Assembly: GCF_025371035.1 (NCBI RefSeq) | Contig: NZ_JANZXB010000006.1 | Location: forward strand, 124,001-188,000 | DNA: 64,000 nt | Reading direction: 5' to 3' | DNA from: Sphingomonas sp. LC-1 | Lineage (GTDB): Bacteria > Pseudomonadota > Alphaproteobacteria > Sphingomonadales > Sphingomonadaceae | Shown: positions 4,702 to 17,416 of the stretch, in pieces | How the letters are laid out: each line of letters opens with the position of its first letter | Position numbering within the stretch: position 1 is the stretch's first letter | The notes under the pieces: generated by a model | Told to the model about the DNA's origin: nothing | The model's database searches: none | What the model saw: only the letters and a program-made list of their open reading frames with translations | Position numbers and translations under genes: made by a program

Positions 4702-5773
4702 AGCGCCGCCTCCAGCCAGGCGTCCGCGTCCGCCGCAAAGGCCTCGCGCACCACCTCGTTACCGATCCGGTCGATCGCGTCCGCTACGAAGGCACGGGTC
4801 AGCAGCGCCTGTGCGCGGGGCTTCGGAATGCCGCGGCTCTGCATGTAGAACAGCGCCTTGGCATCGAGTTCGCCCACGGTCGCGCCGTGCGCGCACTTCA
4901 CGTCGTCGGCGAAGATTTCCAGCTCGGGCTTGAGGTTCACCGTCGCGGTCCGCTGGAGCAGCAGGCCGCGAAGCGACTGTTCGCCATCGGTCTTCTGCGC
5001 ATCACGCGCCACTTCGACACGTGCAGCGAGGCTCGCCTGACTGCGATCGGCAGCAACCGCGCGCCACAACTGATGGCTCTGGCCGTTCAGCGCGGCATGG
5101 CGCAGGCCCACCGCGCACTCCTGCTTCAATTCGCCCTTGGTCAGCAGCGCACCACCGAACTCGGCATAAGCACCGTCGCCGGTCTGGGTGATCCCACCGT
5201 CGATCCGCGCGCCCATATTCCCCGCCGCCAGGAAGGTTGCGGTCAGGCTCGCGCCCTCGCCCAGCTCGGCTTCCTCGCGCAGCGACACGAAGCCGTCGTC
5301 CTGCAACAGCCGCACCGCGCGCATCAGCCGCGCCGATGCGGCGAGCTTCAGCCGCGTCAGCCGGTTGGTCCAGCCGCGCCCGACATAGGTCTCATAGACC
5401 TGCGCCGCCGCATCCTCGGCCAGAACGATCTCGGCGGGCAGATGGTTGGCCGCGCCGCTGGCGACATGGACGATCTGTACGGGCTCCGCGACCGCGTCAC
5501 GCTCCAGCCGCAGCGACCAGCCGCGCCCAAGCGCTTGGCGACCCAACGGATGATCGCTCGCGTCGATCTGGGTCAGCTGGACCGGGCCGAGGCTGCTGGC
5601 GCTTTCATCCAGCACGCCGTCGACGAACAGCAACCGCGCGCCCGGCAGATCGAGGAAGCGATCCGCGCCCGCCACCGGCACCGCCCGCTCGCTCTCCGCC
5701 GCGCGGCGAAGCGCATCGATATCGGCCCAGCGCCAGGCCTCCTCACGCGTGGAGGGGAGTTCCAGCGTGGTGG

Positions 5774-11404: not shown

Positions 11405-12483
11405 CGTGCGCGCACCGTAAATTCTCCCGTGATCCGGCCATTCGCCGCGACGAAGGTGCTCGGCTGGACCGTGAAGCCCTGCGCCTCGACCGCGCGCTTC
11501 AGGTCGGTGGCCAGCGCCTCGCGGTCCACCGCCACGCCCAGCCTTATGTCGCCGGTCGGCTGGAAATCCATCGCGGTCAACTCGCTGCCGGGCACGCTGC
11601 GCACCGCCGAAAAGACCGCTGCCGCCGTCCGGCTGAACCCCTGGCCCGGACCGCGCACCGCCGCCAGACGTTCGGTCAGTTGCCGGTCGGCATCGACCAG
11701 CGTCTCGCCACGGGGCAGCGCGGTGCGGGCGACCTGTTCGATCTTCGCCTCGGTCGCGTCGGCGGCGAAGCTGTATTTGGTCCAGCGCACCAGATCGATC
11801 GCCAGCGTCACCGCGACGATCGCCAGCCCCAGCCAGCCGAGCCGCCGCACCAGCCGCCAGTCGATCGCAAAGCTCCGCCGCCGCGCGAACACCCCCTGTC
11901 TCAGGTCGAGCGCGGGCGCCGCCACCGCCACACTCAGCGCGCTTTCGATCCCGTCGGCGTCGAGATCGACGAGCGGCTCCTCACCCGTGACGATCTCGGT
12001 AAAGCCCGGTTCGTCGGCAAAACCCGACGCGCGCCCGCGCACTACGCCCTGCCCGGCGAGGTCGCCGCGAACATAGCCTTGCTCGGGGCGCGGCAGCAGC
12101 AAGGGCGCGGGCACCACCGCGACCGGATCGATCCCCTTGCCCGCCAACAGGCTGAGCCATACCGCCATCGCGCCGCGATTGACGATGCCGATTGCCCGGC
12201 TCCCCGCCTCGTCCTCGCCGACCGCGACATGGAGTTCGTCCATCGGCGCGGCGCTGACCTCCGCCGCCAGCAATCGCGCGGCGGCAGCCGCCTGCGCGGT
12301 CGAGCGGGCAGGAATCTCTGCCCAGTGCAGCGACACCGCATCGGCGGGCGCGACCGCGATCACCTCGCCGTCGCCTTGCGGGAGGCCCTCGCCGGCGGCG
12401 GCGACGCGCGCATCCTCGATCCGCATCCAGCGATAGTCGCCGCCCTCGCCCGGCGGCAGGAACAGGAGGTTGGTCGCACTCAT
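11401..12483 (-). CDS. gspL: Type II secretion protein L (ATPase-recruiting platform protein)
   Basis: 360 residues from ATG 12483, which overlaps the gspK stop; the longer open frame upstream is only a shadow of gspK. The N-terminal actin-like cytoplasmic domain (residues 1-220) docks GspE. It is followed by one membrane span (about 245-265, WLGLAIVAVTLAIDLV) and a periplasmic ferredoxin-like domain that pairs with GspM. Length and domain order match GspL. Confidence 0.88.
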   Translation of the reverse strand: MSATNLLFLPPGEGGDYRWMRIEDARVAAAGEGLPQGDGEVIAVAPADAVSLHWAEIPARSTAQAAAAARLLAAEVSAAPMDELHVAVGEDEAGSRAIGIVNRGAMAVWLSLLAGKGIDPVAVVPAPLLLPRPEQGYVRGDLAGQGVVRGRASGFADEPGFTEIVTGEEPLVDLDADGIESALSVAVAAPALDLRQGVFARRRSFAIDWRLVRRLGWLGLAIVAVTLAIDLVRWTKYSFAADATEAKIEQVARTALPRGETLVDADRQLTERLAAVRGPGQGFSRTAAAVFSAVRSVPGSELTAMDFQPTGDIRLGVAVDREALATDLKRAVEAQGFTVQPSTFVAANGRITGEFTVRAR

Positions 12484-13472
12484 CACTCTTCCCCCCATCT
12501 CCGCGCCACCAGTCGCGGCGGCAGTCGCGACGCATCGACCAGGGCGCGTTCGTTGACCTGGACGCTGCCCAGCGTCACGTCGATCCGCAGATCGAACCAG
12601 CGGGTCGTCGTCGCCACCCCGCCCGCGCCGCTCGCCCCCGGTATCTGCGCCCAGAAAGCGCTCGCGTCCGCATAGCCTTGCGGCGGGCGACGCAAAAGGG
12701 CCTGAGCGATGCCGGCGGGCGAAATCGTGTCGATCTGCGCCATCGCGACGAGCGGCGCCTGCTCGGGCGCCAAGGTGTTGATGTTGACGCTGGTCGGCTT
12801 CGCCTCGGGCAAGGTGCATATCCAGGGGCGCAGCGTGGCATAGAGTTCCGGCGTGACGCCGTTGACCATCCGCAACTCGCTGACATCCGCCATCATGGCG
12901 CCACCGGTCCGGTAAGGCGGATCGCGTGCCAGATACAGCGCATCCTCCGCCCCGCCCCCTTGCGGATTCTGGTCGCTGTCGATCCAGTCGGAGGTCGCCG
13001 TCGCCACCTGCACCGCGACCTGATCGGGGATGCCGAGCAGCCGCATCAGCCGGCCGAAATGCGCGACCTCGACCGCGTTGCCGATCAGCACGCCGGGCTG
13101 ACCGGGAATGGGTTGCGCCAGCCCGTTCAGGTTGAAGCAGTTGCCGCCATCGGTCACGCGCGCCACCGCCGTTACGCCGCCCGCCCCATCGCCCAGCGGC
13201 AGCGCGAAGGGCCGATCGCTCCACCCGCCGAGCAGCGAGACCTTGCCTTGGGCGCGTTCCAGCAGATCGCCGATGCGGATGATCGCCAGCGCCTCCGCCG
13301 CATAGGCATATCCGCGCGCCTGCTCGATCGCCACCGCATTGCCGCCGAGCCGGGTCGACAGCCGCAGCTTCTCCAGCGCGGTCGCGGCCAGCACCGCGAT
13401 CACCGCGACGAGGATCAGGACGGTCAGCAGAGCCGCTCCGCGTTCGCCCGGACCGGGCCGGGGCTCAGCCAT
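12483..13472 (-). CDS. gspK: Type II secretion minor pseudopilin K
   Basis: 329 residues starting at ATG 13472, inside the 3' end of gspJ. The prepilin-like N-terminus is GERG followed by ALLTVLILVAVIAVL; it lacks the usual Glu at +5, which is normal for GspK, the tip pseudopilin. The long globular domain with a repeated helix-hairpin-helix-like region (INTLAPEQAPLVA and SPAGIAQALL) also fits. Its leader is short (about 13 residues), unlike those of the three pseudopilins encoded just upstream. Confidence 0.9.
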   Translation of the reverse strand: MAEPRPGPGERGAALLTVLILVAVIAVLAATALEKLRLSTRLGGNAVAIEQARGYAYAAEALAIIRIGDLLERAQGKVSLLGGWSDRPFALPLGDGAGGVTAVARVTDGGNCFNLNGLAQPIPGQPGVLIGNAVEVAHFGRLMRLLGIPDQVAVQVATATSDWIDSDQNPQGGGAEDALYLARDPPYRTGGAMMADVSELRMVNGVTPELYATLRPWICTLPEAKPTSVNINTLAPEQAPLVAMAQIDTISPAGIAQALLRRPPQGYADASAFWAQIPGASGAGGVATTTRWFDLRIDVTLGSVQVNERALVDASRLPPRLVARRWGEE

Positions 13473-14232
13473 TGGGTGTCGCGGTCGGGCTGGGGGTCGG
13501 AGAGCTGCTCGGCGACATCCCATTCGGCACGCTGACATAGCCGGTGCCGATGAGGAACAATTGCCGGAAGATCATGCCGTCATCGCGAACGATCGTGACC
13601 TCCGCCGCCTGGGGCAGCGCGACGCCCGCTTGCCCCTGCCACTGGTCGAGCCATGCGCCGCCAAACCGATAGCGCAGATGCAGTTCACGGACATGGTCCA
13701 TCAGCGCGGCGGGCTCCATCGGCGCGGCCCCGTCGAGCAGCGGCCAGGCGACCCGCTCCAGAACGTCACCGTTCAGGCGATAGGCGACTTTCTGCAATGA
13801 CGGCCGCGGTGCGGCGTCGAGGTTGCTCCAACCGGCACGCACCAACCGCATCGCATCGGGCCCGGCGACCATGGCGGGGGTCTGTACGCCGCCTTCGTCG
13901 CGGGTCGGCCGGTCGACTGCCTGTGCCAGGTCGGCGGACAGGATCGCGGTCGTCCGGCTGACCGCCGACATCGCGTCGAGCTTCTGGCCCGTCACCGCTT
14001 GCGCCCGCACGCTCAACGACAGGATCGCCACGGCGGCGGCGGCCAGCATCGAGAAGATGAGCAACGCCACCATGACCTCGACCAGGGTGAAGCCGTTGGA
14101 ATGGGTGCCACACCGGCGAAGGCCGGGATCCCGTTGCCGTGCGGAATGAGGCGCGCAGCGACATTTGCCCGCCCTTTCAAGGTCCGCCGAAGCTGGACCC
14201 CAGCCTTCGCCGGGGTGGTGCAAGGTGAACAT
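13465..14232 (-). CDS. gspJ: Type II secretion minor pseudopilin J, with repeat-expanded leader
   Basis: 255 residues. The ATG at 14232 overlaps the gspI stop (TGATG), the expected coupled start. The class III cleavage motif NG/FTLVE is only reached at residue 47, followed by the hydrophobic helix VMVALLIFSMLAAAAVAIL. Residues about 4-44 are encoded by a family A palindromic repeat (14111-14221). The rest is the GspJ globular domain, ending in a low-complexity Ser/Pro/Thr tail. No ATG, GTG or TTG in frame lies close before the cleavage motif, so the long leader appears unavoidable unless translation is unusual. Confidence 0.88.
   Translation of the reverse strand: MFTLHHPGEGWGPASADLERAGKCRCAPHSARQRDPGLRRCGTHSNGFTLVEVMVALLIFSMLAAAAVAILSLSVRAQAVTGQKLDAMSAVSRTTAILSADLAQAVDRPTRDEGGVQTPAMVAGPDAMRLVRAGWSNLDAAPRPSLQKVAYRLNGDVLERVAWPLLDGAAPMEPAALMDHVRELHLRYRFGGAWLDQWQGQAGVALPQAAEVTIVRDDGMIFRQLFLIGTGYVSVPNGMSPSSSPTPSPTATPNG
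14111..14221. repeat. Family A palindromic repeat inside gspJ
   Basis: Two inverted arms: CACCGGCGAAGGCCGGGATCC at 14111-14131 and GCTGGACCCCAGCCTTCGCCGG at 14192-14213. They flank a core of about 60 bp. The element sits entirely in the segment coding for the GspJ leader and is read in frame without stops. Confidence 0.8.
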
Positions 14233-14753
14233 CACGATGCCGCCACCCCGATCGCCGCCGTCGCCATCGGCGGACGCACCATCGTCATCCGGCCGACAAT
14301 GCTCCCCCCGGCATTGGCGACCGCGACATCGATCCGCACCACGCGCGCATCGCCTGTCCCGCTGACGATCCGGGTCCATTTCCAGCTTCGCCCGCCATTC
14401 ACCTCCGCGCCGCTGGTCCGCCCTAGCGCGGGCGCCTGCGGGTCGGTGACGGCCGAGATCGCGACATTGCGCGCGACCATCTGGGCCACCAGCGTCTCGT
14501 CGAGAATCGAGGCACCCCGGATCGTCGCGCTCTCCAGCCGGACGAGCGCCATCGCCGCCAGGCTGAACACCGCCAGCGCGACCATGATCTCGATGAGGGT
14601 AAAGCCATCCTCCCCGGCACGGGGAGGGGGACCATCCGAAGGATGGTGGAGGGGGCGGGCCGCATAGCGTGCCCCTCGTGGAAGCCCCCCTCCGTCAGGC
14701 CTTTGGTCTGCCACCTCCCCGTGCCGGGGAGGATTGAAACGCCCCTCAACCAT
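14232..14753 (-). CDS. gspI: Type II secretion minor pseudopilin I, with repeat-expanded leader
   Basis: 173 residues from ATG 14753, which lies in the last codons of gspH (ATGGTTGA), so initiation is coupled. The cleavage motif DG/FTLIE occurs at residue 50, followed by the helix IMVALAVFSLAAMALVRLE. Residues 6-48 come from a family C repeat. An earlier in-frame ATG (14789) would lie further inside gspH and is less likely. There is no in-frame start near the cleavage site; the nearby ATG in GAGGATGGC is out of frame. Confidence 0.88.
   Translation of the reverse strand: MVEGRFNPPRHGEVADQRPDGGGLPRGARYAARPLHHPSDGPPPRAGEDGFTLIEIMVALAVFSLAAMALVRLESATIRGASILDETLVAQMVARNVAISAVTDPQAPALGRTSGAEVNGGRSWKWTRIVSGTGDARVVRIDVAVANAGGSIVGRMTMVRPPMATAAIGVAAS
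14608..14734. repeat. Family C palindromic repeat inside gspI
   Basis: About 127 bp bounded by CCTCCCCGGCACGGGGAGG and CCTCCCCGTGCCGGGGAGG, with an internal ACCATCCGAAGGATGGT hairpin. It is the same class as the copy at 8783-8894 but has a diverged core. It lies wholly in the GspI leader-coding segment, ending one to two codons before the cleavage motif. Confidence 0.82.
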
Positions 14754-15351
14754 CGACCCGCACCGTGCCGTCGGCGCCGATCCGGACAATGCTGCTCGCC
14801 CGCTCGCGGGTCAGGCGGAGTTCGACCGGGCGATCGGCCAGCCCCGTCACGTCAAAGGTGATCCGCACCCGCCCGCTCGCATCGGGGATCAGGGCCTGGG
14901 TGCCGTCCTCCCATTGGGCGACGCGCAACGGCTTGGCGGTCATCGGGCTCCACGCGCCGTCCGTTCGCCGGTCGAAGCCATAGCCGCCGCGCGTCACCCA
15001 GATGCTGACCGGCGAAGCCTCGACCACCGCCACGTCATGCGCGGCGCGGACGCGCGCGGCGAAACGCAGCGCCTCGTCGGTCACGCGTCCGCGTCGATCG
15101 GGCAGCGACCAGACCGCGATGGCGGAGGCGAGGCCAATCACGGTGATGACGACCATCAGCTCAACAAGGGTAAAGCCCCGCTCCCTCAATCGGTTCGCAC
15201 TGAGCGAAGTCGAAGTGCATGGGGGGAGGGCTCGGCTTGGCCTTCGACTCCGCTCAGGCTGAACGGAGGATTGGGATGAGGTCCCTCGCCTCACCACGCG
15301 CAGGCCCCGCCCGCCGCCGTTCCCGGCATCCAGGCGGGCGGCCTTGCTCAC
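14746..15351 (-). CDS. gspH: Type II secretion minor pseudopilin H, with repeat-expanded leader
   Basis: 201 residues from GTG 15351, which overlaps the gspG stop (GTGA). The cleavage motif RG/FTLVE is at residue 59, followed by the helix LMVVITVIGLASAIAVW and the GspH beta domain. Residues about 29-55 are encoded by a family B repeat pair. An in-frame TTG at residue 55 would give the short leader MRERG and is an alternative start, but no Shine-Dalgarno sequence precedes it. Confidence 0.86.
   Translation of the reverse strand: MSKAARLDAGNGGGRGLRVVRRGTSSQSSVQPERSRRPSRALPPCTSTSLSANRLRERGFTLVELMVVITVIGLASAIAVWSLPDRRGRVTDEALRFAARVRAAHDVAVVEASPVSIWVTRGGYGFDRRTDGAWSPMTAKPLRVAQWEDGTQALIPDASGRVRITFDVTGLADRPVELRLTRERASSIVRIGADGTVRVDG
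15195..15275. repeat. Family B inverted repeat pair inside gspH
   Basis: Left arm TCGCACTGAGCGAAGTCGAAG at 15195-15215 and right arm CCTTCGACTCCGCTCAGGCTGAAC at 15241-15264 are inverted copies of the family B unit also seen near 2.65, 22.87 and 60.4 kb. The pair falls in the leader-coding part of gspH. Confidence 0.78.
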
Positions 15352-15803
15352 TTATCCCAGTTGCCGATATCGGCGTTGATCCCCTCGCCGCCTTCCTTGC
15401 CGTCGGCGCCGTAAGTCCAGACATCCGCCTCGCCATGCTGGCCGGGCGAAGCATAGAGATACGGACGGCCCCAGGGGTCGTCGGGCAGCTTCTTCAGATA
15501 CCCACCCTTCTGATAGCGCGACGGATCGGCGAGGCCGGCGGGCATCGACACCAGCGCCGGAAGGCCCTGCGACGTCGTCGGGAAGGTCAGGTTCTGCAGC
15601 TTGTAGAGCTCCAGCCCGCCCTCGATCTGCGCGATGTCGGCCTTGGCCTTCTGCACGCGCGCAGTATCGCCCGAGGGAAGCACGTTCAGCGCGACGATCG
15701 TCGCCAGCAGGCCGATGATGACGATGACGACCATCAACTCGACCAGCGTGAAGCCGTTGGCGGGGCGCTTGCGGCGGATCCGCCGGGGGGTGGGGTTACG
15801 CAT
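15348..15803 (-). CDS. gspG: Type II secretion major pseudopilin G
   Basis: 151 residues from ATG 15803, 18 bp after the gspF stop region. The leader is a normal 17 residues, very basic, ending in NG/FTLVELMVVIVIIG. The C-terminus has the calcium-binding major-pseudopilin pattern (DDPWGRPYLYASPGQHGEADVWTYGADGKEGG). It forms the main pseudopilus filament. Its normal leader contrasts with those of the three minor pseudopilins that follow. Confidence 0.95.
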   Translation of the reverse strand: MRNPTPRRIRRKRPANGFTLVELMVVIVIIGLLATIVALNVLPSGDTARVQKAKADIAQIEGGLELYKLQNLTFPTTSQGLPALVSMPAGLADPSRYQKGGYLKKLPDDPWGRPYLYASPGQHGEADVWTYGADGKEGGEGINADIGNWDK

Positions 15804-17072: not shown

Positions 17073-17382
17073 CACCCCGGCGAAGGCCGGGGTCCAGTTG
17101 CGGTGAGGTATATGGGATCGAGATTTTATCTCACGCGAAGCCGCGAAGCCGCGAAGAGAAGATGGGTTCGCGCAGGGGCGCAGAGGACGCAGAGGTGTCT
17201 GGCGCGCGGCAGCGCTCTGTTCTTTCAACCGAGCGAAAGATGACGGCCGCTGGCGCGGCGAAGACAACCTCTCTGCGCCCTCCGCGCCTCTGCGCGAACA
17301 CGCCCTTCTTCTTCGCGGCTTCGCGGCTTCGAGTGAACCCGAATTCGTGACGCATGGCGACTGGACCCCGGCCTTCGCCGGG
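17073..17382. repeat. Composite nested palindrome between gspE and gspF
   Basis: Outer arms are family A units at 17073-17097 and, inverted, 17361-17382. Inside them is a longer inverted repeat: a left arm at about 17129-17192 (including CGAAGCCGCGAAGCCGCGAAG and GCGCAGAGGACGCAGAGG) and a right arm at about 17268-17336 (CTCTGCGCCCTCCGCGCC to CTTCGCGGCTTCGCGGCTTCG). The core around 17200-17260 is unrelated. No gene is supported in this 370-bp gap. It looks like one repeat inserted into another. Confidence 0.8.
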
Positions 17383-17416
17383 CTGGAGGATCGTGATGGG
17401 ACGATAGACACCCTCC

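Follow-up and report, generated by a model that had tools for sequence, protein, structure and literature searches.

The window, as the whole 64,000-nt stretch of Sphingomonas sp. LC-1 DNA analysed here is called, carries five consecutive gsp genes on its minus strand, all named by T2SS profiles. The major pseudopilin gene gspG (15348..15803) is followed by gspH (14746..15351), gspI (14232..14753), gspJ (13465..14235) and gspK (12483..13472), the last being used as a neighbour for comparison. gspH starts with GTG at 15351, in a GTGA overlap with the gspG stop; gspI starts with ATG at 14753, overlapping the gspH stop; and gspJ starts with GTG at 14235, in a GTGA overlap with the gspI stop. These overlaps, read directly from the sequence, confirmed the claim that all three starts are coupled to the previous stop. 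The Pfam profile N_methyl matched GspG, GspH, GspI and GspJ, and the class III signal motif (GFxxxE, N_methyl) was present in GspH, GspI and GspJ. GspI and GspJ scored above the family cut-off in both NCBIfam and Pfam; GspH passed Pfam PF12019 (25.1 against 21) and fell below the cut-off of TIGR01708 (67.4 bits against 80). Genome-wide, N_methyl exceeded its cut-off in the four gsp genes only, a fifth match lying below it, and two A24 peptidase genes were encoded in the genome.

Counted from the overlapping starts, Gly(-1) of the GFTLxE cleavage motif was residue 59 in GspH, 50 in GspI and 48 in GspJ. The leader-coding stretches, with the Gly of the motif included, were thus 15175..15351 (59 codons), 14604..14753 (50 codons) and 14092..14235 (48 codons), all on the minus strand. 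The original prediction had given 59, 50 and 47 residues, which holds for GspH and GspI; for GspJ, 47 fits the second codon, an ATG. The GspG leader had 17 residues, as predicted, and the repeat-free GspK leader, put at about 13, had 12 if the ATG at 13472 is the start. Leaders of T2SS minor pseudopilins have roughly 5–30 residues, and those of GspH, GspI and GspJ in the window exceed this short range. No ATG, GTG or TTG in the window would give a GspI leader shorter than 37 residues or a GspJ leader shorter than 44, and one TTG would give GspH a leader of 5 residues.

Each of the three leaders contained a different repeat. The gspH leader carried an inverted pair of family B repeats (15191..15268, minus strand; 59 places in the genome), the gspI leader a palindromic repeat of family C (14607..14734, minus strand; 13 palindrome places genome-wide, two of them here), and the gspJ leader a palindromic repeat of family A (14108..14218, minus strand; 63 places at ≤2 mismatches). 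These copy counts include the gsp copies, and reversed-pattern controls gave 0. The families were therefore all multi-copy, and the claim that three different ones lie in frame and without stops in the leaders was verified. So was the statement that they end a few codons upstream of the cleavage site: the distance from the repeat to the Gly(-1) codon was 13 nt in gspH, 0 nt in gspI, where the repeat ends at that codon, and 13 nt in gspJ.

The surroundings of the repeats in their own genome were examined in 65 distinct clusters from 73 loci (≤30 per pattern), scored by codon usage and not by annotation. Of the 130 flank sides, 54 were scored as noncoding and 48 were gene 3' ends halting before the element. 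Twelve were 5' sides that stayed open through the element, three of them in the gsp genes. Reading the other nine by eye placed a usual start after the element in eight; the ninth was one A-like hit (L263:2620-2641; 2 mismatches) within the frame of a small ORF resembling a membrane protein, and is probably due to chance. The proposed search for other repeats inside coding sequence, made here on the sampled clusters, thus returned nine further candidates, eight with a start downstream and one probably fortuitous. Among 22 hand-picked dispersed A pairs of this genome, all three phases were seen (5, 9 and 8). The repeats resemble REP/REPIN elements (GTAG-, CGTC-tagged) in being multi-copy, mostly extragenic palindromes, with inverted pairs, tens of copies and largely extragenic flanks. 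They differ in that no match to the RAYT-type transposase profile PF01797 was found in this genome (0 matches; the control was positive in 5 of 14 genomes), and mobilisation of the repeats by a resident RAYT was therefore rejected. Two A repeats were also seen at 17075-17383 of the window, in a long gap between gspE and gspF; the same places are occupied in S. parapaucimobilis.

A total of 149 Sphingomonas loci were compared, comprising the window, the S. parapaucimobilis record NZ_CP155753 and 147 further loci of the genus; the genomes were the best-scoring 148 of 285 with a gspG match, own genome included. L002 and L006 probably represent one species, the gspI and gspJ junctions are missing from L013 and L019, and the parsing of L185 was faulty. 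The record NZ_CP155753.1 (L002, L333, L341) is labelled 'plasmid unnamed5' and carries parC, rpmA and rplU besides the gsp operon; with such core genes, it may be part of a chromosome under a wrong label.

The gap between the previous stop and the cleavage motif ranged from 1 to 592 nt over the 149 gspH, 147 gspI and 146 gspJ loci, and the longest open one, in gspJ of L225, measured 533 nt (about 178 codons). Gaps shorter than 60 nt were found in 78/149 gspH, 112/147 gspI and 85/146 gspJ loci. Read backwards from the motif, the frame stayed open as far as the previous stop in 144 of 149 gspH loci and in every gspI (147/147) and gspJ (146/146) locus; among gaps of at least 60 nt, 162 of 167 were open. 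The five gspH exceptions were L185, where the gene was missed, L131 and L176, open for 69 and 68 codons, and L186 and L195, in which gspH looks uncoupled from gspG. An in-frame start lay between -12 and +18 nt of the previous stop in all 147 gspI and all 146 gspJ loci. For gspH, the scanned stretch round the gspG stop held no start in 90 of 149 loci, and in 13 gspH loci outside the window's clade that were inspected, an ATG lies about 20 nt inside gspG.

The phase of the gap was identical in all 146 gspJ loci, in 133 of 147 gspI loci and in 107 of the 146 gspH loci on the tree. A single quick tree was built from the mature parts of 146 loci, with changes counted as minima. On it, gap length had changed at least 102, 77 and 90 times for gspH, gspI and gspJ, and phase had changed 17, 6 and 0 times, while an unconstrained change of length is expected to shift the phase in about two thirds of cases. 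Switches between long (60 nt or more) and short leaders numbered at least 24, 19 and 31, gains and losses being pooled. The two unused frames of the 162 long open leaders were open in 71 and 83 and contained stops in 91 and 79. Since unused frames are so often open, three open leaders in the window alone are weak evidence, and it is the conservation of frame across the genus that goes beyond chance. Among junctions assigned by record title to other Alphaproteobacteria, 21 of 88 were long and all 21 of these were open; in the loci retrieved from outside that class, 19 of 90 were long and 13 of the 19 were open.

The mature parts were far steadier in length than the leaders: the standard deviation was 1.8, 5.9 and 10.8 aa for GspH, GspI and GspJ (n = 146, 146 and 119), against 26.8, 19.9 and 26.6 aa for the leaders, and mature GspH spanned 139–144 aa across loci. 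GspG and GspK also receive leader inserts, much less often than GspH, GspI and GspJ. Leader gaps of at least 100 nt were seen in 6/136 GspG loci, compared with 47/149 gspH, 29/147 gspI and 51/146 gspJ loci, and inserts of at least 60 nt in the GspK leader in 4/114 loci.

Within the clade of the window, ten distinct gap lengths were found for gspH, four for gspI and ten for gspJ, each gene keeping a single phase (17/17, 16/16 and 16/16 loci). The B-type pair at gspH was present in 15 of 17 clade loci, being missing from L008 and L013, and inspection by eye found elements in 15/16 loci at gspI and 15/16 at gspJ. Inspection also showed that the gspH pair is reversed in orientation between clade species, and that gspJ carries family A in some species and a D variant in others; in the genomes G263 and G291, no further place of the D variant was found at ≤1 mismatch. 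The second half of the gspI element, also inspected by eye, is read in two frames, one shared by 11 of 15 clade loci and the other by 4, with the total still in phase, which argues that the frame is kept and not the peptide. The alignment of orthologous operons, suggested as a search for leaders without repeats, did yield such leaders: gspI of L017 (28 nt) and gspJ of L015 (50 nt) have no element, remain in phase and retain the gene. Element absence there is probably due to loss. The original prediction of three independent insertions stands in part. Three different families at three junctions do imply separate events; the elements occur across the clade, however, and the insertions look older than this species. 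Outside the gsp leaders, persistence is also common. Of ten repeat clusters in the window, nine could be mapped to S. parapaucimobilis and eight were occupied there; outside the three leaders, five of six mapped clusters were occupied, a pair of them sharing an interval. On this small sample, continued occupancy of the gsp leaders is not special and was rejected as a sign of selection.

Many long leaders in the genus were built of inverted repeats. Exact inverted-repeat arms of at least 10 nt were found in 77 of 162 long leaders and arms of at least 12 nt in 66, against 15 and 4 of 162 equal-length stretches of the mature genes, one of which was shortened by the end of its locus. By junction, the long leaders with arms of at least 10 nt belonged to 26/149 gspH, 19/147 gspI and 32/146 gspJ loci, and 71 of the 162 long leaders beat all 30 shuffles for inverted-repeat arms. 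The gspJ leaders of L014, L210 and L222 contained perfect arms of 30, 27 and 29 nt in coding sequence, suggesting a palindrome that was inserted recently or is actively maintained.

A second kind of insert was a tandem 33-nt unit that copies the flank of the motif (GFTPVRRSAEH before GFTLVE). A loose peptide pattern found at least two copies in 27 loci, and the units occurred in G, H, I and J leaders. In L186, L194, L182, L200, L201 and others, the DNA of the unit was nearly identical between diverged species and also from one leader to another among G, H, I and J. The DNA core of the unit was present in 59 of 295 genomes, at 113 places. Of the 87 places that could be judged, in genomes with a known gspG position, 85 lay within 2.5 kb of gspG and two on other contigs; the other 26 could not be judged. 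The 33-nt unit therefore looks local to gsp and not dispersed. Another tandem unit (AQAASRRAAS-like) was observed in three full copies in the gspH leader of L111 (Brevundimonas), and L052, from a record titled Bordetella, has one like it.

The reading that best fits these results, to which we give a probability of about 0.8, is that the leaders of GspH, GspI and GspJ, and less often those of GspG and GspK, form a permissive zone in which in-frame repeats would be translated and then discarded. Each gene would initiate at a codon overlapping the end of the preceding one, and the ribosome would continue through any sequence between this coupled start and GFTLxE. The leader would remain in the cytoplasm until prepilin peptidase removed it after Gly(-1), and its length and sequence would be nearly irrelevant provided that the frame is open and kept and the peptide is not hydrophobic. 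PMC10191384 describes prepilin leaders in general as cytoplasmic and cleaved after Gly(-1). A leader of this kind, being removed, should tolerate hydrophilic in-frame inserts, and, as the start is tied to the previous stop, an insert must either keep the phase or be met by a new start. Palindromic repeats resident in the genome, like tandem duplications of the flank, would persist there only if the frame of the coupled start were kept, and would be thrown away with the leader, leaving no trace in the mature pilin.

At the level of sequence, the leaders are in frame and stop-free while they change in length, family and orientation, and the mature length is kept; we infer that cells initiate at the coupled start, that cleavage follows Gly(-1) and that the inserts are harmless. 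The permissive-leader reading accounts for where the inserts lie, for the rule of phase, for their turnover and for the constancy of the mature part. The earlier suggestion of a permissive target is in this way well supported: leader length has been recast often with the frame kept, mature lengths are near-fixed, and GspG and GspK take inserts as well. The scarcity of GspG and GspK inserts needs another cause if permissiveness is the whole explanation. Also standing against it are the 17 phase changes of gspH, the 5 of 149 gspH loci that are not open, the 90 of 149 gspH loci without a start in the scanned stretch, the co-varying stems described below, and the presence of clear inverted repeats in only about half of the long leaders.

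It is unlikely that the elements are translated stem-loops kept to set the dose of the minor pseudopilins relative to GspG. Such stems would slow the ribosome or polymerase after the coupled start, or protect the upstream message, and REP hairpins are said to act in these ways in other systems. The gspJ leaders share a stem in a matching position, as do the gspI leaders, and 9 of 27 and 5 of 34 predicted pairs, respectively, were changed on both sides. Elements are also kept in 15/17, 15/16 and 15/16 clade loci of gspH, gspI and gspJ, and inserts are concentrated at the G-H, H-I and I-J junctions and rare before GspK. The covariation terms were small, however (-1.71 of -58.02 kcal/mol for gspJ and -0.14 of -64.61 kcal/mol for gspI). 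Palindrome arms can stay alike through hairpin-templated mutation or conversion, and either this or selection could produce the co-varying arms. Further, arms of at least 10 nt are absent from most loci of the genus and from all but 77 of the 162 long leaders, L017 (gspI) and L015 (gspJ) do without an element, and occupancy persists at the five of six mapped non-leader clusters as well. The original suggestion that the inserts change expression or secretion meets the same objection from L017 and L015, and also the many gaps shorter than 60 nt. The more specific proposal, that the repeats were co-opted as translated riboregulators whose stem after each coupled start sets the ratio of major to minor pseudopilins, would be slightly less probable still. 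If it were true, the cleavable leader would allow a regulatory RNA element to lie in coding sequence without marking the finished protein.

Rather improbable is the alternative that the repeats are intercistronic and untranslated, with the true starts just before the motif and the open frame a by-product of GC-rich DNA. The frequent openness of the unused frames (71 and 83 of 162) agrees with it, as do the TTG of the window gspH and the PGAP starts of S. parapaucimobilis NZ_CP155753, which lie inside or after the repeats. PMC3733652 likewise treats many N-terminal intragenic REP cases as possibly extragenic. The phase, however, stayed constant through at least 90 length changes of gspJ and nearly so through at least 77 of gspI, and would need no such keeping if translation began downstream. 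In addition, 73 of 162 long leaders (25/66 gspH, 19/35 gspI and 29/61 gspJ) have no ATG, GTG or TTG within 25 codons of the motif. Internal starts were disfavoured on these two grounds, and the long leaders are most probably translated from the coupled starts, as judged from the frame conserved across the genus despite many length changes. The case that would have removed the long-leader claim, in which gspH is translated from its TTG or gspI and gspJ from internal codons, is thus not favoured. Among the three window leaders, that of gspH is the least secure and may use a downstream start, although the TTG is not at that place in the closest gspH leader (L016). In L002, the PGAP starts are at 4903, 5546 and 5986 for gspH, gspI and gspJ; that of gspI falls downstream of the cleavage motif, so that the annotated protein is without it, which counts against these starts. 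An assembly error, raised as another way to undo the claim, is unlikely, as related genomes and a record described as complete sequence show a like arrangement.

That the leader-encoded peptide itself is functional, in targeting, chaperone binding or timing of processing, is very improbable: long leaders do occur in type IVb pilins (described in PMC10191384), but the leader peptides differ greatly between close species, with either orientation, other families and two frames of one element, and the frame in use is neither more basic (less so in gspI and gspJ) nor more hydrophilic than the other two. Selection on leader charge or hydrophobicity was rejected on the same comparison.

Rickettsia palindromic elements (RPEs) comprise several families, measure about 150 bp and in many cases sit in frame inside genes (PMC10969869, PMC3733652). 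The present repeats are like RPEs in form, being multi-family palindromes that are, at sequence level, in frame and stop-free in coding sequence. Whereas RPEs as described there occupy many unrelated genes, the in-frame copies seen here lie in the presumably removed leader of three adjacent genes and are accompanied by tandem duplications. Compared with the intragenic REPs discussed in PMC3733652, the conservation of frame here argues for coding. The leaders also resemble those of type IVb and Streptococcus sanguinis prepilins in having a variable hydrophilic leader and a Gly before a conserved helix (PMC10191384, PMC6497953). The five S. sanguinis leaders given in the same sources have 8–18 residues, while those of the window have 48–59 and consist partly of repeat DNA. 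A literature search of titles and abstract openings, with most subscription papers beyond reach, found no report of repeats in pseudopilin leaders. In-frame palindromic inserts as such are known from RPEs and intragenic REPs, but the literature so covered did not show them recurrently restricted to a cleavable leader.

These results bear on annotation as well as on biology. Automatic annotation can misplace gsp starts, in one case deleting the cleavage motif, and N-terminal intragenic repeats need a phase test before they are dismissed as misannotation. The more than 100 long leaders of the genus, very diverse in length and sequence, offer a natural experiment on the requirements of such a leader in prepilins. 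For selfish palindromic DNA, the leaders would be a recurrent intragenic home, in a part of the protein that is made and then discarded.
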